From positions 1 to 46,031 of IMG/VR virus record IMGVR_UViG_3300033149_003541: a stretch of DNA of 46,031 nt; one strand, given 5' to 3'. The translations under genes and the position numbers were made by a program. The DNA comes from a virus. Shown here one piece after another: positions 27,345-46,031 of this stretch (position 1 is its first letter; each line of letters begins with the position of its first letter). Below the pieces are notes generated by a model, which saw nothing but the letters and a program-made list of their open reading frames with translations, was not told the DNA's origin and searched no databases.

Positions 27345-27607
27345 TAGAGCTGATACTAACTAAAACTAAAGATCCGCATGACCCTGATTTGGAAAAAGAT
27401 TGTAATGATTTTGTTCCATTAGATGATGGTACTATTCGAGGAGATTGGAAATATTGTAATCTATCTTTTAAATGTAAACAGATTGGAATGTTAAGTGAGT
27501 ATGTTGAAATTTTTGATAGTGATGGAAATTTAGTAGAAAGGGACTATTTATGTACTGGTAAAAAAGCTCTATGGGAGGAACGTAGCGCTGATGACAAAGC
27601 CAGCTAG
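27341..27607 (+). CDS. Hypothetical small protein (88 aa)
   Basis: ATGA overlap of 4 nt with the preceding nuclease stop and a purine-rich AAAGGGAG site upstream. The protein is acidic with four Cys (DCND, YCNL, KCKQ, LCTG), not in tight C-x2-C pairs, so zinc binding is possible but unproven. Its phrase YVEIFDSDGNLVERDYLCTG looks like a beta hairpin of a small globular fold. The last 17 nt overlap the adenine methylase start. Function is unknown; it is likely cotranslated with the recombination and methylation genes. Confidence 0.6.
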   Translation: MIELILTKTKDPHDPDLEKDCNDFVPLDDGTIRGDWKYCNLSFKCKQIGMLSEYVEIFDSDGNLVERDYLCTGKKALWEERSADDKAS

Positions 27608-28403
27608 ATCGTTTTTAAAATGGGCTGGTAGTAAATTACGTAGTATAGAGTTTATAAAAGAAGCCCTAGATGAGCCAGTACATAGATTAGTTGAGCCGTT
27701 TGTTGGTTCGGCGGTTGTTTCATTGAATATCGAAGCCCATGAGTATTTATTGTGTGATTTAAATGATGATTTAATTAATGTTTTTAATACACTTAAAAAT
27801 GAGGGAGAGTATTTTATTAAATATTGTAAAATGTTTTTTAAAGATGGAAATACACAGAGACAGTTTTATTATAATAGATCTATGTTTAATGATTGTGAAA
27901 AAGGGTCTTTAGAAAGAGCGGCTCTCTTTGTTTATTTGAATCGCCATTGTTTTAATGGATTATGTAGGTATAACGTTAAAAGCGAATTTAATGTGCCCTA
28001 TGGAAAATATACGTCGGTACATTTTCCAGAATATGAAATGCGGATGTTTTTACACAAAGCTGATAAGTTTTTATTTAAATGTCAATCGTTTGAAAAAACG
28101 TTTAATGAATGCACTGAATTAGATGTGGTATATTGCGATCCTCCATATTTACCATTGTGTAAAACATCAAATTTTACGGATTATACTAGTGCTGGGTTTG
28201 GGTTAGAAGAGCACAAGGTTTTAGTAAATTATGCTATTAATTGTAAATGTAAAAAAGTATTGATATCTAATCACTGGATTCCAGGTGTTACTGAGGAGTT
28301 ATATAAAGATGGAAACACTGCGAGAAGAAAGTTTGTTAAACGATACATCAGCGCCTATAGTTCTAGGCCAGATGTTGAAGAGGTTTTGGTTATATACGAA
28401 TAG
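27591..28403 (+). CDS. dam: DNA adenine N6-methyltransferase, Dam/D12 class
   Basis: A 270-residue protein of normal length for D12-class enzymes, with GGGAGGAA 11 nt before the ATG. SAM-binding motif I is FLKWAGSK (residues 8-15), followed by LVEPFVGSAVVSLN. The catalytic motif is CDPPYLPL with D183-P-P-Y186. A helical target-recognition region lies between them (LERAALFVYLNRHCFNGLCR, a classic D12 segment). It transfers a methyl group to adenine N6, GATC being the usual site in this family; the actual site is not shown by sequence. GATC is present at many places in this window. It may protect phage DNA from host restriction or mark it relative to host DNA. The next gene is a nuclease-like protein. 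Confidence 0.9.
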   Translation: MTKPARSFLKWAGSKLRSIEFIKEALDEPVHRLVEPFVGSAVVSLNIEAHEYLLCDLNDDLINVFNTLKNEGEYFIKYCKMFFKDGNTQRQFYYNRSMFNDCEKGSLERAALFVYLNRHCFNGLCRYNVKSEFNVPYGKYTSVHFPEYEMRMFLHKADKFLFKCQSFEKTFNECTELDVVYCDPPYLPLCKTSNFTDYTSAGFGLEEHKVLVNYAINCKCKKVLISNHWIPGVTEELYKDGNTARRKFVKRYISAYSSRPDVEEVLVIYE

Positions 28404-28428
28404 AATTTATAAAAAGGAGGATTTAGCT

Positions 28429-28929
28429 ATGAGTAGTGCACAAAGTCAAGGGTCAATTGCTAATAGGGCTGGTAAAGCTTTAGAAAAATATGTAGAAGAT
28501 GTTTTAAAGAGTGCAGGTGTTTTAGTGATGCCTTACCGAGAATGGCGGGGATTAAGCTTTAAGCCAGCGCCTAGAGTTTTATTGAAAAATGTGCCATACA
28601 CAACAATATACGGTTCACGTGGGATAGGTGAGTTTGTATTAATGTTGGAGGGGCAGGGATTACATAATGGGATTAGGATAGAATGTAGATCTCAGCACGT
28701 GGCTGGTTCTGTAGATGAGAAATTGCCTTATTTATTTGAAAATGCTTTAGCGTTTGATCAAAAAAATGTAATTATTGTATTAGATGGGAATGGATTTAAA
28801 AAAGGTGCTAAGGAGTGGTTGATTAATAAAGCAAGATCTGTAGCGCATAAAAATATCGATGTAGTTATGGCAGATGATTATGAGTTTGAGTATTTTATTC
28901 GTATGGTAATGGATACAACAGAGGTATAG
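28429..28929 (+). CDS. PD-(D/E)XK nuclease-like protein (166 aa)
   Basis: AAGGAGG 8 nt upstream fixes ATG 28429; the same frame is open further upstream but that part overlaps the methylase. Residues 12-26 (NRAGKALEKYVEDVL) form the N-terminal helix seen in many nucleases of this fold. It continues with a GIGEFVL strand (E68) and then RIECRSQ (E85, R87, Q89), followed by GSVDEKLPYL. E68...E85-x-R/Q is consistent with a PD-(D/E)XK core in which the Lys is changed, as in several restriction enzymes. The C-terminal NVIIVLDGNGFKKGAKEWL also fits. It sits 25 nt behind an adenine methylase, so a restriction-modification-like pairing is possible. A recombination nuclease is the main alternative. Confidence 0.65.
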   Translation: MSSAQSQGSIANRAGKALEKYVEDVLKSAGVLVMPYREWRGLSFKPAPRVLLKNVPYTTIYGSRGIGEFVLMLEGQGLHNGIRIECRSQHVAGSVDEKLPYLFENALAFDQKNVIIVLDGNGFKKGAKEWLINKARSVAHKNIDVVMADDYEFEYFIRMVMDTTEV

Positions 28930-32589: not shown

Positions 32590-33046
32590 TGTGTCGTCTA
32601 AATCTACGGGTTGGTCATTATTAGATCATAATGAAAATTTAATATTGTTCGATGTTATACAACCTCCAAAGTTAGAGCTTCAATTTAAACTTTATTGGTT
32701 TTATATACATGTTAATGGTTTGTTTTCTATTTTAAAGCCTGATGTTGTTATAATCGAAGAAACTTATTTGAAAAATGTAAAAACTTTGAAAGTATTATCA
32801 CAATTTATAGGTATAGTCAATCTTTTATGTGCTGTATATAACACTGCTGTAGTATTTGTTTCACCAAATACTGTACGTTCCGCATTTAAAATTAAAACTA
32901 AAGAAGACGTATTTAATTTTGTTAGGAATAAATATAAAGTTAAATTAAGATCACTATCGTTTGATTCTGGAAATGATATAACAGATTCTATAATTTTAGC
33001 ATTATATTATATTAGTATAGTTAATGGAGATGATAAAAATGAATGA
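32570..33046 (+). CDS. RuvC-like Holliday junction resolvase (RNase H fold)
   Basis: GGGAGG at 32555-32560, 9 nt upstream, fixes ATG 32570 (158 aa); the start lies inside the previous ORF. The RNase H-fold catalytic pattern is intact: SFDVSSKSTGWSLLD with D7, a second acidic strand VVIIEETYL (E63/E64), and a C-terminal GNDITDSIILALYY helix with D136 and D139. Size and motif order match RuvC and its phage relatives, which cut four-way junctions symmetrically. It probably resolves recombination or replication intermediates produced with the phage RecA, or trims branched DNA before packaging. It overlaps the next nuclease gene by 8 nt. Confidence 0.82.
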   Translation: MKILSFDVSSKSTGWSLLDHNENLILFDVIQPPKLELQFKLYWFYIHVNGLFSILKPDVVIIEETYLKNVKTLKVLSQFIGIVNLLCAVYNTAVVFVSPNTVRSAFKIKTKEDVFNFVRNKYKVKLRSLSFDSGNDITDSIILALYYISIVNGDDKNE

Positions 33047-34181
33047 TTCTATATTATTATCGGCTACGAGAATGTCAATGTTTTTACAGTGTAAGTGGAA
33101 ATATTGGTGTAATTATGTATTAAAACTACCTAGAAAACCGAACCCCGCATTTAAATTAGGTTTGGCTGTACATGAAGCGTTAGCAGCAGCTGGAAAGATT
33201 TGGATTAAAAATGAAAATTTTTCTGCTAATGATATCCAGAAGATTAGAGCGGTGTATAATGAGGTAGCAGCTAGAGAAGGTATAGAAGATCCAGTTATCC
33301 ATAAAGATGGATTAGATATGGTAATGAATAGAATTAAAGAGTTTGTGAATGGTACTATAATTACTATTGAAGAGAGATTTAAAGTAATTACTGATACTGG
33401 TGTTGTTTTGATTGGTGCGATGGATAAAGTAGAGCGGGTTAATAATGATACCGTGTTAGTAACGGATTATAAAACGTCTAAATATTTCGAAAGTGGTGAT
33501 GAATTAAAATCTGATATACAGTTGTCAATATATGATTTAGTAGCGTCTATTTTATTTTCTGATTATAAACGTATTATTTTATCTTTAGATTATTTACGTG
33601 GAGAGCCTGTGTATACTTACAGGACTTTAGATGAAAGGGCTGTGTTTTTAGAATATGTTACAGCTATTTACAATAAAATGCTAGAATTGCGTAAAGAAGA
33701 GGCTATCCCAACACTGAATTCTATGTGTAATTGGTGTGATTTTACTGATAATTGTAGTGCTTATAATGATGCTATAAGTAGTAAGACGTTTATTAAGCGT
33801 AAGCCAGAAGACTACAGTGATGAAGATTTGATAGCCGAGTATGAAGATATTCAAAATAAAAAACGAATTATAGATAAAAGAGAAAAATCTTTACGTAAGT
33901 ATATTTTAGATAAAATAAACTACACAGGAAAAAATGTTGCGGCAAATGGAGTAGAGCTTTATCCTAGACAAAGACTTACGACTACTTATGATCCTAAAAC
34001 ATTATATGAAAATGTACCTACTGATAAATTTTTACAGTTAGTATCGGTATCTAAGTATGATGTTGATAGGTATTTAAAGGAAGACCCTACAATTAAACCT
34101 TATTTAACTGAGACAGCTGTTAAAAAATACACGTCTCCATTTTTAGGTGTTAAGAAGGTTAAAAATAAAAAAGTTGGTTGA
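33039..34181 (+). CDS. Cas4/RecB-family PD-(D/E)XK nuclease with probable Fe-S cluster
   Basis: ATG 33039 has GGAG 9 nt upstream; two earlier in-frame ATGs are less well placed. Motifs of the RecB/PDDEXK_1 family are complete: GLAVHEALAAAG with H45, GAMDKVERV with D129, VTDYKTSKY with D143 and K145, and the downstream QLSIYDLVA. Cys residues C18 and/or C24 near the N-terminus with C230-x2-C233-x5-C239 match the 4Fe-4S arrangement of Cas4 and AddB. The C-terminal 120 residues, with a coiled stretch (EDIQNKKRIIDKREKSLRKY), are extra and may bind a partner. It is likely a 5'-3' or end-processing exonuclease for recombination. No cas1, cas2 or repeat array is nearby, so there is no reason to call it Cas4. 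Confidence 0.82.
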   Translation: MNDSILLSATRMSMFLQCKWKYWCNYVLKLPRKPNPAFKLGLAVHEALAAAGKIWIKNENFSANDIQKIRAVYNEVAAREGIEDPVIHKDGLDMVMNRIKEFVNGTIITIEERFKVITDTGVVLIGAMDKVERVNNDTVLVTDYKTSKYFESGDELKSDIQLSIYDLVASILFSDYKRIILSLDYLRGEPVYTYRTLDERAVFLEYVTAIYNKMLELRKEEAIPTLNSMCNWCDFTDNCSAYNDAISSKTFIKRKPEDYSDEDLIAEYEDIQNKKRIIDKREKSLRKYILDKINYTGKNVAANGVELYPRQRLTTTYDPKTLYENVPTDKFLQLVSVSKYDVDRYLKEDPTIKPYLTETAVKKYTSPFLGVKKVKNKKVG

Positions 34182-34185
34182 TAGG

Positions 34186-34214
34186 TTTACAAAATTAAAA
34201 ACATATGCTATTAT
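34186..34214 (+). promoter_or_regulatory. Extended -10 promoter for the glycan island
   Basis: TTTACA (34186-34191), exactly 17 nt, then TATTAT (34209-34214) preceded by TGC. The -35, spacing and TGC match the promoter before the sliding clamp gene. It lies in the 85-nt gap between the nuclease and the first glycosyltransferase, whose start has AAAGGAGGG. Confidence 0.65.
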
Positions 34215-34266
34215 TTAATCTAGAAGCGATATGTTTAAAGTATTATTTTCTTAAAGGAGGGTTTAA

Positions 34267-35592
34267 ATGGCTAAGAAATCTAGGAAAATAAAAGTTAAAA
34301 ATAAAACAGTTGGTGGAAAAGTCAAAAAAAAGATAAAAGTTTTAGCATATTGTGATAGCCCAACGTGTGCTACGGGATTTGCCACCGTTAGTCGTAATAT
34401 ATTTGAAGGTTTGTATAGGACAGGTAGATTTGATATTGATATTTTAGGAATTAATTACTGGGGAGATCCGCATGATTTTCCTTACCGTATATGGCCTACT
34501 GGTACTAATAACCAAAAAGACCCATATGGAAGGCAGAAAGTTTTAAACATGATTCCACATATGGATTTTGATATTTTATTTTTTCTACAAGATAGTTTTA
34601 TTTTAAATTTTCTTCCTACATTGTTAGATCATTTACGTAAAAATAGACAGAAACCCTTTAAATCAATATGTTATTACCCAGTAGATTCTATTATTAAACA
34701 AGAGTGGGCTAATAACTTAGTTCTAATTGATTATTTAGTAGCATACTCAGAATTTGGCAAGCAAGAAACATTGAAAAGGTTGGATAGAGATATACATGTT
34801 ATACCACATGGTGTAAATACGGGGGAATTTTATCCCTTACCACAAGATGAAGTTAAAAACTTTAGAGCTAAATATTTTGGTCAGTTAGCAGATAAATTTA
34901 TTATTACTAATGTTAACCGTAACCAACAACGTAAAGATCTTCCTAGGACTATCGCAGCTTTTAAAGAATTTAGAAAAGCAGTGCCGGATAGCATTTTATA
35001 TCTTCATTGTGCCATGCACGATCAGGGATGGAAGTTGGATGAAGTTTGTCAATCTTTTGGGTTTGATACGTCAAGGGATGTAATTTTTCCTAAAAATTTT
35101 GGTCCTAATCAAGGCTACCCAAGAGAAGTTTTGAATTTAATTTATAACGCTAGTGATGTTGTTATTAGTACCTCACTTGGTGAAGGTATGGGCTTAGCAT
35201 GGCTCGAATCGCTAGCGGCTAAAACACCGATATTAATGCCTAATAATACGGTTATGCCAGAATTTATAACAGAAGATATAGGGTGGCTAGCTAAAAGCGG
35301 CTCTAATCCATCATTATGGACTACTATACAGTTCGATAATGAAGTAAGACGTCCATTAGTAGATGTTGAAGATATGGTAGAAAAATTATTGGAGATATAT
35401 AATAATCCAGAAGAAGTACGTAAAAGAGTTGAGAATGGATATAATTGGATTGTTAATAAAATGGATTGGCAGAAAGGTATTGTCCCTCAATGGGTAAAGC
35501 TATTCGATAAAGCGTACACAGATATGAGATCAAAGGTTAGTATACCTGAACGTAGTTCTACTGAGCATACAATTAAGGCGGAGGTGTTTTAA
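34267..35592 (+). CDS. GT-B glycosyltransferase, GT4-like (441 aa)
   Basis: AAAGGAGGG precedes the ATG. After a Lys-rich N-terminal leader of 22 residues comes a GT-B fold: KVLAYCDSPTCATGFATVSR (N-terminal Rossmann half with the Gly-rich turn), YLVAYSEFGKQETLKRL, VIPHGVNTGEFYP (inter-domain IPHGVD-type motif), NVNRNQQRKDLPRTIAAFK, and the donor-binding STSLGEGMGLAWLESLAAK. Glu306 and Glu314 form an intact E-x7-E motif. It transfers a sugar from a nucleotide donor with retention in this family; donor and acceptor are unknown. It is the first gene of the island and its stop overlaps the next start by one base. The basic N-terminus is unusual for GT4 enzymes and could hold the protein near nucleic acid or membrane surface. 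Confidence 0.85.
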   Translation: MAKKSRKIKVKNKTVGGKVKKKIKVLAYCDSPTCATGFATVSRNIFEGLYRTGRFDIDILGINYWGDPHDFPYRIWPTGTNNQKDPYGRQKVLNMIPHMDFDILFFLQDSFILNFLPTLLDHLRKNRQKPFKSICYYPVDSIIKQEWANNLVLIDYLVAYSEFGKQETLKRLDRDIHVIPHGVNTGEFYPLPQDEVKNFRAKYFGQLADKFIITNVNRNQQRKDLPRTIAAFKEFRKAVPDSILYLHCAMHDQGWKLDEVCQSFGFDTSRDVIFPKNFGPNQGYPREVLNLIYNASDVVISTSLGEGMGLAWLESLAAKTPILMPNNTVMPEFITEDIGWLAKSGSNPSLWTTIQFDNEVRRPLVDVEDMVEKLLEIYNNPEEVRKRVENGYNWIVNKMDWQKGIVPQWVKLFDKAYTDMRSKVSIPERSSTEHTIKAEVF

Positions 35593-36710
35593 TGGAATTA
35601 ATAGGTATTAAATATATCGCGCCGTTTTTTGATGTGTCCGGATATGCAGAAGCGGCTAGAAATTATGTATTAGCTCTTTATAAATTAGGCGTGCCTTTAA
35701 CACTAGTTCCAGTTTCATTTGAGCAAGGTGAAGCTGAATTAGGGGAAGAAGGACGTATACTTAAAAGTTTAGTTAATGTTCCTATTGATTATAATATAGT
35801 GTTGATACATTTAACTGTTGAGCATTATCAAAAATTTATAGAGCCTGGAAAATTTAATATAGGTTATTCTATTTGGGAAACTAGCCGCATTCATGATAAG
35901 TGGGTGGAATGGATTAATAATTATGTAGATTTAGTTTTTACTGCTTCTGATTGGGGTATTAACGTTTATAAAGATTCAGGCGTGCTTAAGCCTATGACTA
36001 AGATTCCCCATTGTATAGACGTAGATAAGTATAAAGAAGTAGAAGAGTTTAAAGTGAGCGGGGTGGATCCTGCTGCTTATAAATTTTATGCTGTTTTTCA
36101 ATTTATAGAGCGTAAAAACCCATTAGCGTTAATTAAAGCTTACTGGAATGCATTTCAAAATGGTGAGAACGTTGCCCTTATTTTAAAAACTTATAGAGCT
36201 GATTTTTCAGATCCTGAGAAAGAAGCAGTTAAGTTTGTACTTAAAAAACTTAAAGACACTACAGTTTTTAATACTTATCCGCCAATTTATTTAGTGCTTG
36301 ATAAGTTATCTAATGATGAGATGTTAGGCCTTCATAAATATTGTGATTGTTTAGTACACACAGATCGTGGAGAAGGGTGGGGACTTAGCCCTTTTGTGGC
36401 AGGTGTGTTTGGAAATCCTATAGCTGTGACTGGATGGGGAGGAGTTACAGAATATGCTAAACCTGATAATAGTTATCTTATCGATTATATGTTGGAGCCA
36501 GTGTATGGCATGATGATTTCTCCTTTTTATAATGCTCACCAGCTTTGGGCATATCCAAGCATTATCCATACTAGTAGTATTATGAAGGGTATATATGCTA
36601 ACCGTGAGGAAGCTGCTGAAAAAGGTAAAAAACTTCGTAGCAATATAATAGAAAATTTTAGCCATGACGTCATAGGGAATAAAATTGTGGAGGCTATAAA
36701 ACAAGTATGA
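35592..36710 (+). CDS. GT-B glycosyltransferase (372 aa)
   Basis: Starts on the last base of the preceding stop with GGAGG upstream. The GT-B plan is clear: KYIAPFFDVSGYAEAARNYV near the N-terminus, GYSIWETSRI, VFTASDWGINVYKDSGV, KIPHCIDVDKYKE, then DRGEGWGLSPFVAG and GNPIAVTGWGGVTEY. The first Glu of the E-x7-E pattern is E261; the second position is Val269, so the motif is not canonical. This variant is frequent in phage and cell-surface glycosyltransferases, and does not by itself mean loss of activity. It probably works with the neighbouring transferases on one glycan. Confidence 0.8.
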   Translation: MELIGIKYIAPFFDVSGYAEAARNYVLALYKLGVPLTLVPVSFEQGEAELGEEGRILKSLVNVPIDYNIVLIHLTVEHYQKFIEPGKFNIGYSIWETSRIHDKWVEWINNYVDLVFTASDWGINVYKDSGVLKPMTKIPHCIDVDKYKEVEEFKVSGVDPAAYKFYAVFQFIERKNPLALIKAYWNAFQNGENVALILKTYRADFSDPEKEAVKFVLKKLKDTTVFNTYPPIYLVLDKLSNDEMLGLHKYCDCLVHTDRGEGWGLSPFVAGVFGNPIAVTGWGGVTEYAKPDNSYLIDYMLEPVYGMMISPFYNAHQLWAYPSIIHTSSIMKGIYANREEAAEKGKKLRSNIIENFSHDVIGNKIVEAIKQV

Positions 36711-37186
36711 AATTTTCATTAAATATAGGATGTGGAGATGATATAATTGATAATATTAACGGTTATAAATGTGTGAACGTTGATATTAGGCCTTTAGATA
36801 AAGTGGATATTGTGTGTGATGTTAGAAATTTGCCATTTCCTGATAGTGCTTTTGTTAGAATATTAGCGTCTGATATAATAGAACATTTTCCAGTTAGTGA
36901 TACTGATAAATTGTTAGCTGAGTGGGCAAGGGTTTTGGAAAATGGTGGTAGAATTAAGTTTAGAACTCCTAGTTTAAAGTGGGTGGCTCAAACTTATTTA
37001 AACACATTAGACGCTAAATTTGTATCTTGGCATATTTTTGGAGGGCAAGATTATAAAACTAATTTTCATTATGTAATTTTTGATCATATATGGCTTTCAA
37101 AGTTATGCAGTAAACATGGTCTAATTATGATAGATTATAAAGAAGTACATTCTAATTTTGAGCTTGTATGTGAAAAGAGAGTTTAG
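36707..37186 (+). CDS. Class I SAM-dependent methyltransferase
   Basis: A compact 159-residue Rossmann methyltransferase. Motif I is LNIGCGDD (residues 5-12), which binds SAM. VNVDIRPLDKVDIVCDVR provides the acidic strand-2 residue, LPFPDSAFVRILASDIIEHF contains the typical AxDxxxHF of Methyltransf_11, and VLENGGRIKFRTPS is the post-motif strand. The short size, lacking any added substrate domain, fits O-methyltransferases found in sugar or capsule clusters. It overlaps the upstream transferase by 4 nt. It may methylate the glycan made by this island; a small-molecule or protein target cannot be excluded. Confidence 0.78.
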   Translation: MKFSLNIGCGDDIIDNINGYKCVNVDIRPLDKVDIVCDVRNLPFPDSAFVRILASDIIEHFPVSDTDKLLAEWARVLENGGRIKFRTPSLKWVAQTYLNTLDAKFVSWHIFGGQDYKTNFHYVIFDHIWLSKLCSKHGLIMIDYKEVHSNFELVCEKRV

Positions 37187-37213
37187 CGGGTAAAAGTTTT
37201 TGGAGGGTATTTA

Positions 37214-37882
37214 ATGACTATAAAATTAATTCATTCAACTTTTGCAAGGGACGAATCTTACTGTATAGCTAATATGCTTGAGAGTATACTACCGTATGTG
37301 GATGAAAGTTATATTTTATTTGATGATAGATGTGATGAAGAGACATTGAAAGTGGTAGAGTCGTTTGGTTGTCATATTAAGATGGCTAAATTAGAAAATT
37401 TTGGTAAATTTAAAAATATTCAATTAGAATGGATAAATGATAAAGCAGATTGGGTTTTTGGGTTGGCGCCAGATGAAACTATAACAGAGGTGTTAGGTAG
37501 ACGTTTAAGACAATTAGCACAGGAACTACAAGCTTCTGATGTTGATGGGGTGTATTTTTCTAGAAGGCATTGGGCTGATTTAGAAATGATTAAGGAGATT
37601 AAAGGTAATGAAGGTTTAAAGGGGGAATCTGAGTGGTATCCAGATTGGCAACAACGTTTAGTAAGGTTGGATTATCCTAGGATTCATGCTGTAAGGTATG
37701 TACATGAAGTTATTGTTGGGATAAGACGTTCAATTAAAGTTCAGTTAGATATTAATCATTTTAATACTTACTGGAAGCCAAAATTAAATATAGATTGGAA
37801 TAAAATGTTAGAATATTATGAGCATTTAAAAAAACTACAGGCAATTGAAAGTGGGTATAATATTTGGCCAGATAAGGAGTAG
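37214..37882 (+). CDS. GT-A-like glycosyltransferase (222 aa)
   Basis: A GGAGGG site lies 7 nt before the ATG. The N-terminus IKLIHSTFARDESYCIANML with ILFDDRCDEETL and DWVFGLAPDE matches the Glyco_tranf_2_4-like pattern. RDE begins the nucleotide-binding turn, FDDRCDEET fills the acidic metal site, and APDE takes the place of the DxD-like acidic pair. The C-terminal part (YPDWQQRLVRLDYPRIHAVR, INHFNTYWKPKL) fits the acceptor-binding half. It is shorter than typical GT2 enzymes. Donor and acceptor unknown. The next gene begins 4 nt after its stop. Confidence 0.72.
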   Translation: MTIKLIHSTFARDESYCIANMLESILPYVDESYILFDDRCDEETLKVVESFGCHIKMAKLENFGKFKNIQLEWINDKADWVFGLAPDETITEVLGRRLRQLAQELQASDVDGVYFSRRHWADLEMIKEIKGNEGLKGESEWYPDWQQRLVRLDYPRIHAVRYVHEVIVGIRRSIKVQLDINHFNTYWKPKLNIDWNKMLEYYEHLKKLQAIESGYNIWPDKE

Positions 37883-37885
37883 AAT

Positions 37886-38899
37886 ATGAAAATAGGTGTT
37901 ATTGGAGCTGGTTATTGGGGGCCTAATTTAATACGAAATTTATTTGAGCTTGGTGTTTTGGAAATTATTTGCGATAAAAGCGAAAAGGCTTTAAATAAAG
38001 TAAAAAAATTGCCACATGCATATAATATTAAATTAACTAAAGACGTAGATGAGCTTCTCCAATCTAAATTAGACGCGCTTGTAATTTCTACACCTCCAGA
38101 TACGCACTATGAATTGGCTAAAAAAGCATTGTTAGCAAACAAACATATATTTGTTGAAAAACCTTTGACTTTAGATAGTGGGGAGGCTTCTGAATTAATT
38201 GAATTAGCTGAAAAGAAAGGTCTTGTGTTAATGGTTGGGCATACGTTTTTATATAGTCCAGATATAAAGTTGTTGAGAGATATTATTACGGATGAAGAGT
38301 TTGGAAATATATATTATATGTATAGTAGGCGCCTTAATTTAGGTAAAATACAGAGTTCAGCTAATGTAGTTCAGGATTTAGCCCCGCATGATATTTCCAT
38401 TTTTCAGTATTTATTAAATAGAAAGTGTGAATCTGTACAAGCTTATGGATCTAGTTATATTTTAGGTAATGTTGAAGAAGTAGTATTTATTAATTTAATA
38501 TATGAAGGTAATGTAGTTATTAACTTACATTTAAGTTGGATAGACCCATTAAAAGTGAGAGAGTTGGTAGTAGTAGGTTCTAAACAGATGGTTAAATGTG
38601 ATTCTCTTAATAAACGCATTAATTTATATAATAAAGGTGTTGATATTGATAGGCGTAGTTTAAAAAGTAAAGGTACCTATGCAGAACATTTATTGAATTA
38701 TAGATATGGAGATGAGGTAATTCCTTATATAGAGACGCAAGAACCTTTAAAAGTTGAAATGTTGGATTTTATAGGTTGCGTAGAGAATCCCGGCCTTCTT
38801 ATACCAGAATCAGATGGGCATCTTGGTTTAGAGGTGGTTAAGATTTTAGAAGCGATTCAAAAATCATTAAGGAATAATGGAAAATGGATAATATTATAG
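37886..38899 (+). CDS. Gfo/Idh/MocA-family sugar dehydrogenase (3-oxidase type)
   Basis: AAGGAG precedes the ATG. The NAD(P)-binding GVIGAGYWGPNLIRN (4-18) and the EKP motif (E91-K92-P93, where Lys is catalytic in the family) are intact, as is LAPHDISIF. The phrase LSWIDPLKVRELVVVGSKQM is typical of the Gfo/Idh/MocA branch that accompanies DegT aminotransferases and LbH acetyltransferases in surface-sugar clusters. That branch oxidises C3 of a nucleotide-linked sugar to a ketone before amination, as WbpB/WlbA does. The partners are encoded nearby at 40753, 41409 and 42009. The actual sugar is not known. Overlaps the next gene by 16 nt. Confidence 0.85.
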   Translation: MKIGVIGAGYWGPNLIRNLFELGVLEIICDKSEKALNKVKKLPHAYNIKLTKDVDELLQSKLDALVISTPPDTHYELAKKALLANKHIFVEKPLTLDSGEASELIELAEKKGLVLMVGHTFLYSPDIKLLRDIITDEEFGNIYYMYSRRLNLGKIQSSANVVQDLAPHDISIFQYLLNRKCESVQAYGSSYILGNVEEVVFINLIYEGNVVINLHLSWIDPLKVRELVVVGSKQMVKCDSLNKRINLYNKGVDIDRRSLKSKGTYAEHLLNYRYGDEVIPYIETQEPLKVEMLDFIGCVENPGLLIPESDGHLGLEVVKILEAIQKSLRNNGKWIIL

Positions 38900-39726
38900 T
38901 TGGAGTTTTTATTACTTACCAATGTATTTTTTTGGACTATCCGTTAGAAGCAGCTTTACGAAGCGCTTTTGATTTATGTGATTATGTAGTTGTTAATGAT
39001 GGTGGGTCAAAAGATGGTACGTTAGATTTAGTTTATTCTTTACAACGTGAGTATGGAAAGGATCGAATCAAGGTTTTAAATAGAAATTGGGTTCATGATA
39101 GAGGATTTTGGGCACGTGAAAGAAACTTTGTTTTGGATCAGATTCCGCCTAAACATTACGTTTTTAATTTAGCAGCAGATGAATGTATTCATGAAAATGA
39201 TATTGTTAGGATTCGGAAAGCTGTATTTAAATTGGGAGATAGGGGTTTAAGGTTTACCCCTATTCATTTTTATGGAAGGCCAGACTATGTAATTAGTGGG
39301 ACACATTGGGCCAAAATATTAACTAAACTATGGAGAAATGATTTAGGTATTAGATATTATAATGTGATTGGCGGCTGTGCAGATGATCCATTGTGGCCTG
39401 ATAAGACTCCAGTACACTTTAAAAAAGTGTACGCCTCTAATATAAACATTTATCATTATGGCCATTGCCGTAGTCCTAAAGCTTTGGCTATTAAAAATGA
39501 AAAAGCTCATTCGCTGTATCGTAATGAGCGGTTTTATATTAATGGATCTTTTCCTGTTATTAAATTATTTGATTATCAATTAGAAAGATATATAAATGGC
39601 TATAATGGTGACATAGCTACTAAATTTGATGGTACTCACCCTAAATACATATCGAGTTGGTGTAATGAACATGCAAATCAAAAATTATCGTACAGGAAGG
39701 CGGATGAAGAAATTGATAGAGTTTGA
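38884..39726 (+). CDS. Family 2-like glycosyltransferase (280 aa)
   Basis: Starts 16 nt inside the dehydrogenase gene with AAGGAA about 9 nt upstream. The GT-A core has a DYVVVNDGGSKDGT strand-loop (D39, the acidic residue of the nucleotide site), and a NLAADECIHE stretch that takes the place of the DxD motif (A-A-D-E). The C-terminal half (GGCADDPLWPDKTPVHFKK, NIYHYGHCRSPKALAIKNEK) ends in a His-rich acceptor region. No membrane helix is seen. It probably adds one sugar of the phage-encoded glycan. Confidence 0.76.
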   Translation: MDNIIVGVFITYQCIFLDYPLEAALRSAFDLCDYVVVNDGGSKDGTLDLVYSLQREYGKDRIKVLNRNWVHDRGFWARERNFVLDQIPPKHYVFNLAADECIHENDIVRIRKAVFKLGDRGLRFTPIHFYGRPDYVISGTHWAKILTKLWRNDLGIRYYNVIGGCADDPLWPDKTPVHFKKVYASNINIYHYGHCRSPKALAIKNEKAHSLYRNERFYINGSFPVIKLFDYQLERYINGYNGDIATKFDGTHPKYISSWCNEHANQKLSYRKADEEIDRV

Positions 39727-40738
39727 AATACAAAATACGTTTAATAGGTATGAAAAGTTGCAAAAACCATTACGTATTATTTTAGCAATGACGGTACGTA
39801 ATGAAGTGGAGTACGGTAAGCATATATATATGCAATTAGAAAATGCAGTAAAATTAGATTACGATGAAATAGTTATTTTAGACGATGGAAGTACTGATGG
39901 AACGTGGGATGTTTTGAAAGAGTATGCTAGTAAGTATAATCATTTACGCATTAAGCGGAATGAAGTGAATAGTGTAATTGCTAAAGGTGAAAATAGATGG
40001 ATAACTTTGATAAAAGAATGTGCTAAGTATTATCCAACGTGGCTACATTTTAGAGCATGTGATCAATTACATTCAAAGGCTTTTAATAATAATATGAGAG
40101 ACATAGTGTCATATTTTCATGAACAAGGAGGATGGCTTATTAGGATTCCTTTAGCACATTTGTGGAGATCTGAAGGGTGGTTAAGATTTGATAATGTTTG
40201 GTACAGCGATTTTGTTAATCATAGCCGTAGTCAATTATGGCGTTTTTATAAAGATTATAAATATAAAAAACATAGACATAAGGCGGCTTTGCATTTAGGT
40301 GGGCATCTACCTAATGTAGCGTCTCCTTATTCGGTTACACCTACTTTTAATATCAATTCATTTGATAGGAGCAGAACAAAAGAGGGTTATTGGAGATTTA
40401 TAGTTTTGCATTATGGACATACTACCCATGAAAAGAAAGAAGTTAAGTTTAGGCTCACAATGGATGCTGCAAAAAATGGTGTATCTGTTGGATGTCCACC
40501 ACCAGAGGAAATGCCTCATCCTCAATATTGGATGCATTATAATGGGTATAAGGGATTTTATGAATTTAATGTAGTGCTTAATAAAACGTCCCAAGAATGG
40601 TTTGATAAAGAAATAAATTTCGATGTCCCACAGTTTAAATCTTTTTATAATGTAATAGCTGAGTATAGGGTAGATCGTGCTGAGGAATATCAAGCTTTAT
40701 ATAACAAGTATAAAGAGGAAATACCTCATTATGTTTAG
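39704..40738 (+). CDS. Family 2-like glycosyltransferase (344 aa)
   Basis: The frame is open from 39626, but ATG 39704 follows AGGAAGG and gives a normal N-terminus, so I use it. It overlaps the upstream transferase by 23 nt. The GT-A core shows RIILAMTVRNEVEYGKHIYM and EIVILDDGSTDGTWDVL with D60 and D61, the standard GT2 nucleotide-binding motif. The central block WLHFRACDQLH has a C-x-Q in place of the usual DxD, which is unusual. The C-terminal part carries FIVLHYGHTTHEKKEVKFRL and a PPPEEMPHPQYW loop. The next gene starts 14 nt downstream. Confidence 0.76.
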   Translation: MKKLIEFEIQNTFNRYEKLQKPLRIILAMTVRNEVEYGKHIYMQLENAVKLDYDEIVILDDGSTDGTWDVLKEYASKYNHLRIKRNEVNSVIAKGENRWITLIKECAKYYPTWLHFRACDQLHSKAFNNNMRDIVSYFHEQGGWLIRIPLAHLWRSEGWLRFDNVWYSDFVNHSRSQLWRFYKDYKYKKHRHKAALHLGGHLPNVASPYSVTPTFNINSFDRSRTKEGYWRFIVLHYGHTTHEKKEVKFRLTMDAAKNGVSVGCPPPEEMPHPQYWMHYNGYKGFYEFNVVLNKTSQEWFDKEINFDVPQFKSFYNVIAEYRVDRAEEYQALYNKYKEEIPHYV

Positions 40739-40752
40739 GCGTGGAGGTAATT

Positions 40753-41415
40753 ATGAAGTTAACGAGGAGTTATCTACAAGAATTAAAAGATAAGTGTACA
40801 ATTTTTTCAGAGGTAGTAATAGGAAAAAATGTTACATTTTTTCCTTATGCGGTTATAGGAAGGCCCAGCTTTGTTCCAAGTGGAGCTACATCTCGTCGAG
40901 TTAGTACTGATATAGAGCCTACAATTATAGGGGATAATTCTGTAATAGGGTCTGGAGCAGTTGTATACCATGGATCTATAATTGGAAAGAATTGTTTGAT
41001 AGGGGATCAAGCTAAACTAATGAATAATGTTGTTATTGGAGATTATAGTCTGATTGCTATTAATGTTAAGGTTGGGTACGAGACAATTATAGGGCATCAT
41101 ACACGTATAATGGATTTAACAAACGTTGCAGGACGAGCCATCGTAGGGAATAATGTTTTTATAGGTCCAGGAGTTATGATGGGGAATGATAACAAAATGG
41201 GCCGTGCTGGTGGAGAAGGTGATAAAGGCCCAATAATTGAAGACTATGTTACAATCGGTATGAATGCTTCTATACTGCCTGGAGTAAGAATAGGTAAAGA
41301 TAGTATTATAGCTGCTGGATCTGTTGTTACTAGAGATGTTGAGCCTGGATGTTTATATATGGGGACTCCAGCTAAATTTAAAAGGAAATTAAGAGGAGAT
41401 GAAATCAGATGTTAA
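40753..41415 (+). CDS. Left-handed beta-helix acyltransferase (220 aa)
   Basis: GGAGG 5 nt before ATG 40753 fixes the start; an in-frame GTG at 40741 overlaps that site. Hexapeptide repeats of the [LIV]G-x4 type run through most of the protein (VVIGKNVTFFPYAVIG, TIIGDNSVIGSGAVV, SIIGKNCLIGDQAKL, VTIGMNASILPGVRIG, SIIAAGSVVTRDVEPG). The end YMGTPAKFKRKL is the usual C-terminal motif of acetyltransferases such as WbpD/WlbB relatives. Such trimeric enzymes move an acetyl (or acyl) group from CoA to an amino or hydroxyl group. With the dehydrogenase and aminotransferase nearby, N-acetylation of a 3-amino sugar is the likely job. Its stop overlaps the next start by 7 nt. Confidence 0.82.
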   Translation: MKLTRSYLQELKDKCTIFSEVVIGKNVTFFPYAVIGRPSFVPSGATSRRVSTDIEPTIIGDNSVIGSGAVVYHGSIIGKNCLIGDQAKLMNNVVIGDYSLIAINVKVGYETIIGHHTRIMDLTNVAGRAIVGNNVFIGPGVMMGNDNKMGRAGGEGDKGPIIEDYVTIGMNASILPGVRIGKDSIIAAGSVVTRDVEPGCLYMGTPAKFKRKLRGDEIRC

Positions 41416-41906
41416 TAGGGCAATTCAACGTTATAGAAGACTTTGTTGATATCGCTGATGATGTGGAAATTAAACATTTTAATTATATATGGAAAAACGT
41501 TAAGATTGGAAAAGGTTCTAAAATAGGAAGTTATTGCGAATTAGAAGAAGGGGTTGTTGTAGGTGACAACACCATACTTCAAGGACGTGTGAGGTGTGGT
41601 CCAAATGCTGTTATAGGTAATAATGTTATTATTAAATATGGAACAATTATTACTGATAAAGCAGTTATTAAAGATAATGTTTTTATAGGTCCAAACGTAA
41701 TCACACTTGGGTCAGAGCCGAATACTAGTAAGATATATGGTACAATTATAAATGAGAATTGTTTTATTGGTGCAGGAGTTAAAATATCTGCTGGCATTAA
41801 TATTTGTAAAGGAGTAGTGATAGGGGCTAATAGTTTTGTTAATAAAAATATTAATGTTTCAGGGCTATATGCTGGATCGCCTGTTAGACGTATTAAAGCT
41901 TTTTAA
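41409..41906 (+). CDS. Second left-handed beta-helix acyltransferase (165 aa)
   Basis: AAGAGGAG lies upstream and the ATG is within the previous gene's last codons. The protein is a shorter run of hexapeptide repeats (VKIGKGSKIGSYCELEEG, VVVGDNTILQGRVRCG, AVIGNNVIIKYGTIIT, CFIGAGVKISAGINI) ending YAGSPVRRIKAF, a variant of the YAG.PAK.I ending in O- and N-acetyltransferases. Together with the upstream enzyme it gives two acyltransferases in one island; one may act on the amino group and the other on a hydroxyl group. Which is which cannot be decided from sequence. Confidence 0.78.
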   Translation: MLIGQFNVIEDFVDIADDVEIKHFNYIWKNVKIGKGSKIGSYCELEEGVVVGDNTILQGRVRCGPNAVIGNNVIIKYGTIITDKAVIKDNVFIGPNVITLGSEPNTSKIYGTIINENCFIGAGVKISAGINICKGVVIGANSFVNKNINVSGLYAGSPVRRIKAF

Positions 41907-42008
41907 TTTTTCTCTGTTATTTTTGGTAAGTTGTGATATTTTATTGGAAGGGGGTAGGAGGCTATTTTTATTGTGGTATTGAATAAGTAACGGCTTCCAA
42001 AAATTAGT
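41907..42008 (+). promoter_or_regulatory. Leader of the aminotransferase gene with displaced ribosome binding site
   Basis: The ATG at 42009 has no purine-rich site nearby. The only strong one is TAGGAGG at 41955-41961, 47 nt upstream. Behind it are a GTG (41973) and a five-codon ORF ending at 41990. A 7-bp inverted repeat, TTGGAAG (41944-41950) and CTTCCAA (41994-42000), encloses the site. TATTTT at 41937-41942 with TG upstream could be a weak -10 but has no clear -35. The structure could control translation of the aminotransferase; this is inference. Confidence 0.35.
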
Positions 42009-43124
42009 ATGAAAATTAATTTTGTAGATCTTAAAGCGCAGTATAACCCATATTTAGAAGAAGTAATGAATAAAGTTAAGAATATACTAGAAACTACATC
42101 TTTTGTAGGTGGAAAATATTTAGAAGAATTTGAAAATAAAGTTGCACGATTTAATAATAGTAAATATTGTATTGGTGTTGGATCTGGAACTGACGCATTA
42201 TTACTGACTTTGTTGGCTTATGGTATAGGTCCAGATGATGAAGTTATAGTACCAGCTAATACCTTTATAGCAACAGCTTTTGCAGTAACACATACAGGAG
42301 CAGATGTAGTTTTTGTAGACGTAGATCCAGATACGTATTTAATAGATTTAACTTCATTGTTTAAAGCTATAACACCGAAGACAAAAGCAATAATTCCAGT
42401 ACATTTGTATGGACAAATGTGTGATATACAAGCTATAAAAGGCATTATAGCTGGTAGGGACATAAAAATTATAGAAGACTGTGCGCAAGCATTTGGGGGG
42501 TTATATCTTAATAATAGGCCAGGTTATTTTGGAGATGCTGGATGTTTTTCATTTTATCCTTCCAAGAATTTAGGTGGACTTGGTCAAGGCGGGTGTGTAG
42601 TTACTAACGATGCAGAATTAGCAAATAAAATAAGATCATTTGGTGATGTTGGAAGATCACTGACTGATAAGTATAAACATGAGCTTGTAGGTTTTAATTC
42701 AAGGTTAGATACTATTAATGCAGCTTTTCTTGGCGTTATGATTGATCATGTGGATGAATGGAATGCTAATAGGTATTTTGTGGCTAGACAGTACAATCTT
42801 TTACTTAAGAGTGTTCCAGAGGTTAAAACGCCAGCTGAGGATAAAAATGCGTTACATATTTATCATTTATATGAATTGAAATGTAGAAATAAAGATGAGA
42901 GGGATGCTTTATTTCAATTTTTGTTAAATAAAGGTATAGGTGTAGGGTTACATTATCCAATACCATGTCATAAACAGCCTATGTATAAACATTTAGGGTA
43001 TAAACTTCCTATTTGTGAAGAACTTTGTGATACGCTGTTGTCTCTTCCAATGCATCCTAATTTATTAGTGGATGATATAATGTATGTAATTAAATCAATA
43101 CGAGAATTTTATGGTAGGGTGTAA
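42009..43124 (+). CDS. DegT/DnrJ/EryC1/StrS-family sugar aminotransferase
   Basis: A 371-residue PLP enzyme of normal length. The start MKINFVDLKAQY is the usual N-terminus of the family, so ATG 42009 is right even though it lacks a nearby ribosome binding site. Marks are GSGTDALLLTL (PLP-phosphate contact), DEVIVPANTFIATAFAV, IIEDCAQAFGG with D157 (pairs with the pyridine nitrogen), FSFYPSKNLGGLGQGG with Schiff-base K186, and LHYPIPCHKQP. It transfers an amino group, usually from glutamate, to a keto-sugar on a nucleotide carrier. With the neighbouring C3-oxidising dehydrogenase the product is likely a 3-amino-3-deoxy sugar (WbpE/WlbC or FdtB-like). Position specificity cannot be proven here. 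Confidence 0.9.
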   Translation: MKINFVDLKAQYNPYLEEVMNKVKNILETTSFVGGKYLEEFENKVARFNNSKYCIGVGSGTDALLLTLLAYGIGPDDEVIVPANTFIATAFAVTHTGADVVFVDVDPDTYLIDLTSLFKAITPKTKAIIPVHLYGQMCDIQAIKGIIAGRDIKIIEDCAQAFGGLYLNNRPGYFGDAGCFSFYPSKNLGGLGQGGCVVTNDAELANKIRSFGDVGRSLTDKYKHELVGFNSRLDTINAAFLGVMIDHVDEWNANRYFVARQYNLLLKSVPEVKTPAEDKNALHIYHLYELKCRNKDERDALFQFLLNKGIGVGLHYPIPCHKQPMYKHLGYKLPICEELCDTLLSLPMHPNLLVDDIMYVIKSIREFYGRV

Positions 43125-43125
43125 T

Positions 43126-43614
43126 ATGAGTGATTTAGATAATATAAAATTAATAATTTCTGAAATTGATGGGGTTATTACTGACGGTAAATGGACCGAA
43201 GATGAAATTGGTAATGTATTATATAAATCGTTTCAAAGTAAAGATTTTGATGCAATAAATGAGCTTAGGAAATCATATAAATTTGTGTTCTTATCTGAAG
43301 ACAATAGGATTAATTATAATATGTGTAAGCGGAGAAATATTCCGTTTTATTGGGGTAGAAATAGAGAGGAAAAGTATAAAAAAGCAATAGATATTTTACA
43401 TAGATATTCATGTACTCCAGATAACACATTGTTTATACCATCAAAATTAAGTGATTTAAAATGTTGTCAGTTAATACCGAAAACGATATGCCCAGACGAT
43501 GTTGGTGAGTATTTAAAGTCTAAATGTTGGGCTGAGTTTAAAATAGGCGGTGGAGAAGGAGTGCTTGTTGAATTGGTATACTTATTAAATAGTATTAAAA
43601 CACTTAACGTTTAA
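43126..43614 (+). CDS. KdsC-like HAD-family protein with altered active site
   Basis: ATG 43126 (162 aa) follows an AGGG run; the frame is also open a few codons upstream. The N-terminus IISEIDGVITDGKW matches the C0-type HAD phosphatases (KdsC, D-x-D-G-V-x-T-D-G), but the nucleophile Asp is Glu13, leaving E-I-D15. Motif II (normally ITGR) reads VFLSEDN, with Ser in a plausible place. Lys-rich KYKKAIDIL supplies motif III, while motif IV (normally GDD) reads IPSKLSDL, losing acidic residues. KIGGGEGVLVELV is kept from the KdsC C-terminus. KdsC relatives remove phosphate from sugar phosphates in surface-sugar routes. This one may be inactive or have a changed role. Confidence 0.65.
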   Translation: MSDLDNIKLIISEIDGVITDGKWTEDEIGNVLYKSFQSKDFDAINELRKSYKFVFLSEDNRINYNMCKRRNIPFYWGRNREEKYKKAIDILHRYSCTPDNTLFIPSKLSDLKCCQLIPKTICPDDVGEYLKSKCWAEFKIGGGEGVLVELVYLLNSIKTLNV

Positions 43615-43650: not shown

Positions 43651-44694
43651 ATGATTATTAAGCGAGGAAAAGGCGATCTTAATTTAGTGTATAGACCTTG
43701 TCGTATAGATGAAGTATATGGGCACGATACTATTAAACGTGTAATAAGTAACGCATTGACTACAGGACAGTTACCACATTCTATGCTATTTGTTGGACCT
43801 TCTGGCTGTGGAAAGACGACGTTTGCGAGAATTGTTGCTTTAGGATTAAATTGCGAAAAAGGTCCAACTCCCAATCCTTGTTGTAAGTGTTCATCTTGCA
43901 AATCTATATTAGGACTTAATAGCTTATCTGTAGTTGAGGTAGATGCTGGACGAATTGGCGATGTTGCAACTGTGAGAAGAATACTTGATGAACTTCCTTC
44001 CTCCCCTATAGATGCTAAGTATAAGGTAGCGATTTTTGATGAGGCGCATTTGTTAGTAGCGCCTTCTAAGTCTGAAGATGCGTTGCTCAAATTTTTAGAA
44101 GATACTCCTAACCATGTTTATATAATATTATGTACTAATTACCCTAATAAACTTAAAGAGGTTACATTAAATCGTTGTAAAGTATTTAGGTTTGAAAGGC
44201 TTTTAGATAAACATATCTATAAGTTATTAGAAGAGGTAGCTCAGTTTGAAGGATTTGAGTATAAATCAAATATTCTAAAACGTATAGCTACTGAAGCTGA
44301 CGGTGTTCCTAGAGCGGCTTTATCATTTCTACAACAAGTTGCGTTAGAAGGTACATGGTCTGAAGAGGCTGTAAATGCTATTACAAATACAGCCAATGAA
44401 GAGGAATATGCCATAGGTATAGATTTAGTTAAAACGTTGCTTTATAAAGGGTTTAAAGAGGCTATGGTTATATATTCTAAATTGAACAATGTTCAATTAG
44501 AAACTGTACGCATGATTGTATGTGGGTATTTAGTCGGCAGTCTTAAAAAATCGAAAAATATAAATGAGGCTGTGAAATTTTCTAAGGCTATAGAATTATT
44601 TGAGGAGCCTTATTTTAATAATCCAAAACCTGAGCATAAGTTTATAAATTCTTTATTTAAAGCTGCACTTATTTTACATAATAAAAGAATTTAA
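43651..44694 (+). CDS. dnaX: DNA polymerase III gamma/tau-like clamp loader subunit
   Basis: GAGGAG precedes the ATG. The 347-residue protein has all marks of the DnaX AAA+ family: LVYRPCRIDEVYGHD, Walker A GPSGCGKTT (49-57, K55), a zinc module C68-x8-C77-x2-C80-x2-C83, and Walker B AIFDEAHLL with D130/E131. DALLKFLEDTPNHVYIIL is the sensor-1 region, and LNRCKVFRFERL has arginine finger R175 where bacterial DnaX has SRC. It loads the ring clamp onto primed DNA. The clamp itself is encoded at 24213. There is no tau-type C-terminal extension, so it corresponds to the gamma form. The other loader subunits (delta, delta prime) are not visible in this window and might come from the host or from elsewhere in the genome. 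Confidence 0.88.
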   Translation: MIIKRGKGDLNLVYRPCRIDEVYGHDTIKRVISNALTTGQLPHSMLFVGPSGCGKTTFARIVALGLNCEKGPTPNPCCKCSSCKSILGLNSLSVVEVDAGRIGDVATVRRILDELPSSPIDAKYKVAIFDEAHLLVAPSKSEDALLKFLEDTPNHVYIILCTNYPNKLKEVTLNRCKVFRFERLLDKHIYKLLEEVAQFEGFEYKSNILKRIATEADGVPRAALSFLQQVALEGTWSEEAVNAITNTANEEEYAIGIDLVKTLLYKGFKEAMVIYSKLNNVQLETVRMIVCGYLVGSLKKSKNINEAVKFSKAIELFEEPYFNNPKPEHKFINSLFKAALILHNKRI

Positions 44695-44790: not shown

Positions 44791-46031
44791 ATGACTGTAT
44801 TTGATATGCATAGTGAGTTAGGCAATTTACCTAAGCCAGATTATATATATGTTACATCTAGTGAAGAAGCTATTAGATGTTTACAAGATATCTCTAAATA
44901 TAATGTCATTAGTGTTGATACTGAAACTACTGGTTTAGATCCATTTGTAGATAAAATTGTATTGTTACAGATAGGAGCGGGGACTAAAAGTTATATATTT
45001 GATGTTCGTGATGGTAATGTAGATGCTACTATTTTTAAACCTATACTTGAATCTGATAAGCAGCTTAAATTGTTTCAAAACGCAGTGTTCGATGCTAAAT
45101 TTTTAAAATATCAATATAACATTAGGTTAGTTAGAATTTATGATACTATGCTAGCTGAACAGTTGTTATATTTGGGTTTTAATGTAAAAGCTAGTTTAGA
45201 TCATCTTGTAGACAAATATTTAAAAATTCATATGCCTAAAGAGTCTGCAACTACATTTAAAGATTATTACCAAAAGTATTCAGAAACTCAACTTATTTAT
45301 GCTGCTAATGATACTTTGGTTTTGCCGGAAATTTATAATTTACAGTTAGCTAAATTAATGAATTCTAATTTAGTTAGAGCTGCTAAATTAGAGTTTGATT
45401 TTGTAAGAGCGCTAAGTGAAATGGAATTAAATGGAATGCTGTTAAATATTGATAAATGGCGTGAGCTGCTTAGTGGAATAGAAACTGAACGTAATAAAGT
45501 CGGTATTCAATTACGACAAATTTTAGGAGAAACTAGTAATCAAAATACCCTGTTTGATGTTTCTTTAATAAATTTAGATAGTCCTATTCAAGTAGTTAAA
45601 GCTTTAAATAAATTAGGTATTAATGTTAAAAGTACAGATGTTAAAGAACTTAAAAAATATGGCAACAGTCCAGTAGTTAAACTATTGTTAGAGTATAGGA
45701 AACACGAAAAATTTTTAACTACTTATGGAGAAGCATTAATAGAAAGAGTTCATTTTAAAACAGGCCGTTTACATAGTGATTTTAGACAAATGGTAGCCAC
45801 TGGTAGGTTGAGCTCGTCTAACCCCAATTTACAAAATATACCGTCTGAAAAAATATACAGGGCTTGCTTTGTGGCACAGCCTGGATATAACTTAATAACT
45901 TGTGATATGTCTCAAGCAGAATTGCGTATTTTAGCTGCGTATTCAAAAGACCCTGTATTCTTGGAAGCATTTGAAAAAGGCTTGGATTTACATGCTAGAA
46001 CAGCAGCTGATTTATTTGGAGTAACGTATGA
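44791..46031 (+). CDS. polA: Family A DNA polymerase (DNA polymerase I-like), 3'-partial
   Basis: The frame runs from ATG 44791 to the right edge; about 413 codons are visible and the gene continues. The N-terminal part has an intact DnaQ-like 3'-5' exonuclease: VISVDTETTGLDP with D43 and E45, LFQNAVFDAKFLK (motif II), and YAANDTLVLPEIY (motif III). The polymerase part starts with FDFVRALSEMELNGMLLN. It reaches MVATGRLSSSNPNLQNIP and motif A CDMSQAELRILAAY with catalytic D372, where the usual DYSQIELR has Tyr and Ile changed to Met and Ala. There is no 5'-3' exonuclease domain at the N-terminus, as in T7-like and Klenow-type phage enzymes. It is the likely replicative polymerase. Translation start appears specially regulated. 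Confidence 0.92.
   Translation, partial: MTVFDMHSELGNLPKPDYIYVTSSEEAIRCLQDISKYNVISVDTETTGLDPFVDKIVLLQIGAGTKSYIFDVRDGNVDATIFKPILESDKQLKLFQNAVFDAKFLKYQYNIRLVRIYDTMLAEQLLYLGFNVKASLDHLVDKYLKIHMPKESATTFKDYYQKYSETQLIYAANDTLVLPEIYNLQLAKLMNSNLVRAAKLEFDFVRALSEMELNGMLLNIDKWRELLSGIETERNKVGIQLRQILGETSNQNTLFDVSLINLDSPIQVVKALNKLGINVKSTDVKELKKYGNSPVVKLLLEYRKHEKFLTTYGEALIERVHFKTGRLHSDFRQMVATGRLSSSNPNLQNIPSEKIYRACFVAQPGYNLITCDMSQAELRILAAYSKDPVFLEAFEKGLDLHARTAADLFGVTY

Follow-up and report, generated by a model that had tools for sequence, protein, structure and literature searches.

The subject of this analysis is a gene island of an uncultured bacteriophage, contained in the whole IMG/VR record IMGVR_UViG_3300033149_003541 (46,031 bases; hereafter the window). 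The island comprises eleven co-directional genes on the + strand (34267–43614) and is flanked by genes for a Cas4-like nuclease and a DnaX-like clamp loader. The window proteins were assigned to families with Pfam, NCBIfam, and PHROGs profiles. The island encodes five glycosyltransferases (GTs), a methyltransferase, a Gfo/Idh/MocA dehydrogenase, two hexapeptide acyltransferases of the left-handed β-helix (LbH) type, a DegT aminotransferase, and a KdsC-type haloacid dehalogenase (HAD) protein. An earlier reading of this DNA, made from the letters alone (the sequence-only reading), had placed its genes at these positions on the + strand, and the profiles bear this out, with the fifth GT recognized by its AlphaFold model only. 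The genes it listed were named correctly, but the KdsC-type HAD gene (43111–43614) was left unnamed. Neighboring island genes mostly overlap or lie ≤36 bases apart, and the widest internal gap (102 bases) precedes the DegT gene. The proposal that a single promoter drives the island found no support: promoter-like matches were fewer than in shuffled sequences (61 compared to 69), and in several relatives the first GT gene (GT4a) continues directly from the Cas4-like gene with no gap.

Three enzyme families of the island form a predicted amino-sugar trio. The dehydrogenase (37886–38899; PF01408, 3.8e-26) is predicted to oxidize a UDP-N-acetylhexosamine at C3, and its Lys92 (in the EKP motif), His168, and Asp169 were invariant in an alignment of 18 sequences. 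The DegT/DnrJ/EryC1/StrS protein (42009–43124; PF01041, 1.7e-110), a predicted sugar 3-aminotransferase, retains the pyridoxal phosphate (PLP) lysine, Lys186 in FYPSKNLG. Its best PDB relatives were 7b0d (342 bits), QdtB (309 bits), WbpE (261 bits), and the DesV entry 2oga (253 bits), with 5u1z and 7n63 also among them, whereas the 4-aminotransferases perosamine synthase (197 bits) and ArnB (164 bits) came well behind. DesV (2oga) is a sugar 3-aminotransferase, and the carbon positions of QdtB and WbpE are taken from their names. Of the two acyltransferases, LbH1 (40753–41415; PF00132, 3.7e-32) matched QdtC (3fs8) best in PDB, and LbH2 (41409–41906; PF00132, 4.8e-23) matched the N-acetyltransferase 7s43 and the WxcM-like protein 4mzu.

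Homologues of the dehydrogenase with up to 44% identity occurred in 59 of 189 genomes sampled from a single bacterial phylum, the one to which a Myxococcales genome belongs. The surroundings of the nearest bacterial dehydrogenases were examined at 40 loci. No more than 3 kb away and on the same strand, 28 of these loci had a DegT gene and 25 an LbH gene, with 19 having the two together, counts that express an association and not an enrichment factor. Several of these loci encode Gfo–LbH fusions. Because the bacterial LbH proteins adjoining the dehydrogenase usually match LbH1 better than LbH2, LbH1 is likely the N-acyltransferase of the trio. Judged by this gene order, the dehydrogenase–LbH–DegT trio is a real bacterial cassette. 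The family assignments, the intact catalytic residues, the nearest solved aminotransferases, which are mostly of the 3-type, and the bacterial synteny make C3 the best reading of where the trio would act, and a well supported one.

The substrate was considered next to known routes. A dTDP route of the QdtA/B/C type requires a 3,4-ketoisomerase and a 4,6-dehydratase but no Gfo/Idh enzyme. This candidate was rejected, as the island gave no Pfam match for either of the two required enzymes. The dehydrogenase profile scored 150 bits against 3c1a, 145 bits against 7bvj, and 88 bits against 3q2k. We take 7bvj (deposited as "Oxidoreductase, NAD-binding" only) to be GnnA and 3q2k to be WlbA. No match over the cut-off to a WbpA-type UDP-sugar 6-dehydrogenase (PF03721) was obtained in the window and 18 related records, although the host could provide this activity. 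The C3 trio of the sequence-only reading stands by families, catalytic residues, and synteny, while its specific WbpB/WbpE/WbpD label and its dTDP-sugar alternative are weaker, given these dehydrogenase profile scores and a best NCBIfam model that is a UDP-GlcNAc 3-dehydrogenase. WbpB uses the uronic acid UDP-GlcNAcA, which is produced by WbpA (PMC10622841), and GnnA and GnnB directly oxidize and aminate UDP-N-acetylglucosamine (UDP-GlcNAc; PMC5644692). Since no WbpA-type enzyme was detected and WbpB/WlbA is not the nearest relative of the dehydrogenase, UDP-GlcNAc is favored over UDP-GlcNAcA, and also over dTDP-sugars, as the probable substrate; the predicted product is UDP-GlcNAc3NAc or a relative. 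No nucleotidyltransferase was found either, and both absences fit the earlier suggestion that nucleotide-sugar precursors come from the host.

The survey of related phages that the sequence-only reading had called for was carried out by alignment-based scans of IMG/VR. It recovered a lineage of 38 loci on about 35 contigs of uncultured phages that share the Cas4–GT4a–GT4b junction, whereas single-protein scans of viral contigs with the Gfo/Idh, DegT, and DnaX proteins of the window found no close relatives. The Cas4-like and GT4a genes were present in all 38 loci and GT4b came next in 33, several loci ending earlier. Genes for RecA, DnaB, primase, and RuvC lie upstream in most loci whose contig extends there, and the cassette lies beside PolA wherever the contig extends that far. 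The entire island, including DegT and HAD, was found in L105 (IMGVR_3300021467_000093), which has homologues of 10 of the 11 window genes at 51%–82% identity in the same order. L106 (IMGVR_3300035527_000232) carries homologues of island genes together with extra insertions and has a different GT2 gene at the GT2b position. Across the lineage, dehydrogenase genes were present in 14 loci (11 contigs). In L162, a GT9 protein and other genes replace the trio next to a GT4a that is 85% identical to that of the window over the matched part. Other cargo includes a UDP-GlcNAc 2-epimerase in L167 (290 bits), an NAD-dependent epimerase/dehydratase of the 4,6-dehydratase type with DegT in L174, and a sulfotransferase near the dehydrogenase in L107. 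Because the relatives keep GT4a and GT4b with different cargo, these two genes are the constant part of the cassette and the sugar-making genes are the variable part. This pattern resembles a serotype-switching locus, here in a phage, and phages of the lineage may switch the glycan they display.

The ratio of nonsynonymous to synonymous change (pN/pS) in comparison with relatives was 0.19–0.53 for those island genes that were compared, which indicates purifying selection. In a quick dehydrogenase tree, built without bootstrap, the lineage dehydrogenases and that of the window fell in one set (SH-aLRT, the Shimodaira–Hasegawa-like likelihood-ratio support, 100), which also included two long-branch rows, identical to each other, from other viral contigs. 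The viral dehydrogenases overall need several origins in this tree. Gfo/Idh, LbH, and DegT homologues were also close together in viral contigs outside the lineage (L109, L112, L114, L117, L122–L124, L126, L128, L143, L146, and L147), and their several tree positions suggest repeated acquisition. Separately, the Cas4/GT4a junction is a recurrent insertion site for homing-endonuclease-like genes whose zinc-binding CPxGH units are repeated (L105:3000–6318, L106:3893–4756, L159:9151–10005, and L166:8365–9963).

The cassette begins with GT4a (34267–35592; PF00534 Glycos_transf_1, 2.7e-11; phrog_2170, 1.7e-52), a GT of the GT-B fold, followed by its conserved GT4-like partner GT4b (35592–36710; phrog_2170, 1.4e-21). 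The AlphaFold2 model of GT4a (predicted local distance difference test, pLDDT, 83.5) matched the chlorovirus protein B736L (3oy2) best in PDB, and then ordinary GT4 enzymes. The EX7E donor-binding motif of GT4a is split by an intein-like insertion in L162:10001–12478 (start CLSPDTNIYT, end VHN|S), and oversized GT4a open reading frames (ORFs) also occur in L181, L183, and L185. The class I S-adenosylmethionine (SAM) methyltransferase gene (36707–37186; PF08241, 4e-9) has a counterpart in L105 with 77% identity. GT2a (37214–37882) has no sequence-family match and was recognized as GT-A-like by structure prediction: the model is of low confidence overall (pLDDT 60.8), with the N-terminal ~110 residues reliable. 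In the model, this N-terminal half takes the GT-A fold, and its best Foldseek matches, obtained with this weak model, were the peptide S-glycosyltransferases SunS and ThuS, and TarP. GT2b (38884–39726) matched PF00535 weakly (4e-4, under the curated cut-off) and GT2c (39704–40738) more clearly (1.6e-9). The two correspond to a single 622-residue ORF in L105 with two GT2-type matches, in which GT2c is matched at 65%.

The island closes with the HAD protein of the KdsC/KDN-9-phosphatase type (43111–43614; NF058599, 1.3e-11; NF007019, 7e-10). When aligned to 1j8d, the nucleophilic Asp of HAD motif I was found replaced by Glu18, and the acidic pair of motif IV was also replaced. Glu at the nucleophile position is common to the three phages of the window, L105, and L106, and the pN/pS of the gene is 0.32. 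By these residues, the protein is probably a maintained pseudoenzyme.

On the left, the island is bounded by the Cas4-like PD-(D/E)XK nuclease gene (33024–34181, + strand; PF12705, 2.5e-20), a conserved boundary that adjoins GT4a in the lineage loci. On the right, the boundary gene of the window encodes the DnaX-like clamp loader (43651–44694, + strand; PF13177, 1.7e-27), as it does in L105 and L106. The next gene, for DNA polymerase A (44791–46031, + strand; PF00476, 9.8e-42), is truncated by the contig end. The replication block further upstream encodes a D12-class (Dam-like) adenine methyltransferase and then a PD-(D/E)XK protein (27591–28929). Large upstream ORFs of up to 2278 residues (67–24083) gave hardly any PHROGs or Pfam matches and probably encode highly divergent structural proteins. 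A terminase (PF03237) was not matched in any of nine records scanned.

We favor the explanation that the island is a phage glycan-assembly cassette with cargo swapped among relatives and with one or more virion proteins as the most likely acceptor, and we hold this explanation as a whole with about even confidence. The dehydrogenase would oxidize host UDP-GlcNAc (less likely UDP-GlcNAcA) at C3 to a 3-keto sugar, DegT would aminate this sugar, and LbH1 would N-acylate it to a UDP-2,3-diamino sugar, e.g., UDP-GlcNAc3NAc. In the predicted order of sugars, GT4a and GT4b would build the inner part of the glycan, which is common to the lineage, and the three GT2-type enzymes would attach further sugars, the amino sugar among them. 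The methyltransferase and LbH2 would cap or decorate the glycan, with the HAD protein as a probable catalytically dead partner. No membrane segment was predicted in the island proteins, where hydropathy never exceeded 1.6 over 19 residues, and a soluble acceptor therefore fits. The resemblance of GT2a, by its weak model, to the peptide glycosyltransferase SunS and that of GT4a to B736L were counted for virion proteins, and phage GTs glycosylate virion proteins in Che8, Corndog, and Myrna (PMC12363180). Giant viruses offer a further analogy (PMC10117803). On this analysis, a virion protein is preferred to DNA or the host envelope as acceptor, a choice that may be right about half of the time.

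Several points weigh against this explanation. The best NCBIfam model for DegT is PseC, a 4-aminotransferase (237 bits, under the cut-off of 423.5), and the best for the dehydrogenase, the UDP-GlcNAc 3-dehydrogenase model NF040723, reached 158 bits, far under its cut-off of 450. GT4 folds are uninformative on the acceptor, and the acceptor of B736L is itself unknown (PMC9614988). Because the structural genes of the window have no family matches, no candidate glycoprotein can be named. Finally, genes resembling thymidylate synthase (TS) or ThyX lie between GT4a and GT4b in related phages and could point to DNA.

If DNA were the acceptor, a TS- or ThyX-family enzyme would provide a 5-substituted pyrimidine that GT4a and GT4b glycosylate after replication and the cargo decorates, giving switchable protection from restriction or CRISPR. 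We consider this unlikely, although the island does lie inside a replication operon, between the Cas4-like nuclease and PolA. TS-like genes (PF00303) are located between GT4a and GT4b in L165:8192–8941, L166:11520–12173, L167:11319–12131, and L172:12031–12837, and ThyX-like genes (weak PF02511 matches) in the same place in L106:6751–7374, L168:11315–11890, L183:12580–14172, and L191:11284–12855. The last two carry intein-like insertions. TS domains in metaviromes are associated with DNA modification (PMC8670742). However, blastp detected neither a TS nor a ThyX homologue in the window, itself a genome fragment, and none in L105 either, despite its complete island. The TS-like proteins also keep the dUMP-type Asn at the position-177 motif, which is usual in unmodified contigs (PMC8670742); those of L165, L166, L167, and L172 share a conserved DPPCLR and have Leu at the position of Escherichia coli TS His147. 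They may simply produce dTMP. Moreover, neither the alpha- nor the beta-glucosyltransferase of T4 was among the 50 best structure matches of GT4a in PDB; in BFVD, one phage protein annotated as a DNA alpha-GT appeared at rank 33. The glycan islands of two relatives contain a C5-cytosine methylase (L106:13680–16131 and L172:19804–21253), which at first seemed to favor DNA modification. It adjoins a gene for an HNH-containing protein, and since the two probably form a restriction-modification pair, this argument was dropped. A TET/JBP search gave no match, with the controls equally silent. The extended form of this idea, in which multi-sugar chains with a 2,3-diamino sugar would stand on DNA bases and cassette swapping would switch the DNA glycan type against restriction or CRISPR, appears rather improbable.

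It is similarly doubtful, and a little more so than simple DNA glycosylation, that during infection the cassette modifies O-antigen, capsule, or teichoic acid in the envelope of the host, which would block superinfection or change receptors. The trio and the GT families are typical of bacterial surface-polysaccharide loci, and TarP-type folds were among the structure matches of GT2a, but the island proteins gave no membrane protein and no Pfam, NCBIfam, or PHROGs match to a flippase, polymerase, ligase, or lipid-carrier transferase, and a replication operon surrounds the island. Recent capture of host DNA, or an artefact of binning or assembly, is a very improbable source of the island: the trio is of bacterial origin, but GC content is uniform across the island (30%–34%) and the same as in the remaining window, the position is shared by ~35 independent contigs, the lineage dehydrogenases form one set, and the genes are under purifying selection.

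Bacterial 3-amino-sugar enzymes, phage GTs, and giant-virus sugar clusters are each already known singly. To our knowledge, no described phage lineage has a fixed, cargo-swapping glycan cassette with a complete 3-amino-sugar trio, and few systems of phage-encoded virion glycosylation are known to us, each with few GTs. A limited literature search for phage amino-sugar gene sets found none. If the favored explanation is true, some phages diversify their glycan much like bacteria diversify O-antigen. The cassette also offers a defined gene set for asking how sugars benefit a phage (defense evasion, adsorption, or DNA protection) and a compact source of 3-amino-sugar enzymes.

Among known systems, WbpB/WbpE/WbpD (WlbA/C/B), which make UDP-GlcNAc3NAcA in Pseudomonas aeruginosa, Bordetella, and Thermus (PMC10622841), have the same three enzyme families and the same reaction order of C3 oxidation, C3 transamination, and N-acetylation. 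The island differs in the absence of a WbpA 6-dehydrogenase, in a dehydrogenase profile nearer to other Gfo/Idh proteins than to 3q2k, and in the absence of a UDP-GlcNAc 2-epimerase from the window scans, although L167 has one. GnnA/GnnB and the archaeal UDP-GlcNAc 3-dehydrogenase (NF040723) share a C3 route on UDP-GlcNAc itself, with no C6 oxidation needed (PMC5644692); the phage differs in its hexapeptide acyltransferases, and the island showed no lipid A genes. T4 DNA glucosylation likewise links phage GTs to replication genes, but no hydroxymethylase was found in the window fragment, and GT4a lacks folds like those of the T4 enzymes AGT and BGT among its top PDB matches. Neither a dedicated amino-sugar pathway nor a swappable cassette of several genes is known to us from mycobacteriophage virion glycosylation. 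The likeness there lies in the GTs of the three phages named above, which modify virion proteins (PMC12363180, citing Freeman 2023). Tetrasphaera phage TJE1 (HQ225832) lacks the Gfo/Idh–DegT–LbH trio, by BLAST of the region examined, but its GT4a homologue (38%) adjoins nucleotidyltransferase, epimerase, and methyltransferase genes. Giant viruses (Mimivirus viosamine, Megavirinae; PMC10117803, PMC9614988) have eukaryotic hosts and make C4-amino sugars through a 4,6-dehydratase, with glycans demonstrated on their fibrils, whereas the phage island, known from its genes, has a predicted C3 route; what they have in common with it is a cluster of viral aminotransferase, acetyltransferase, methyltransferase, and GT genes that differs between clades, with clade-specific sugars in the Megavirinae.

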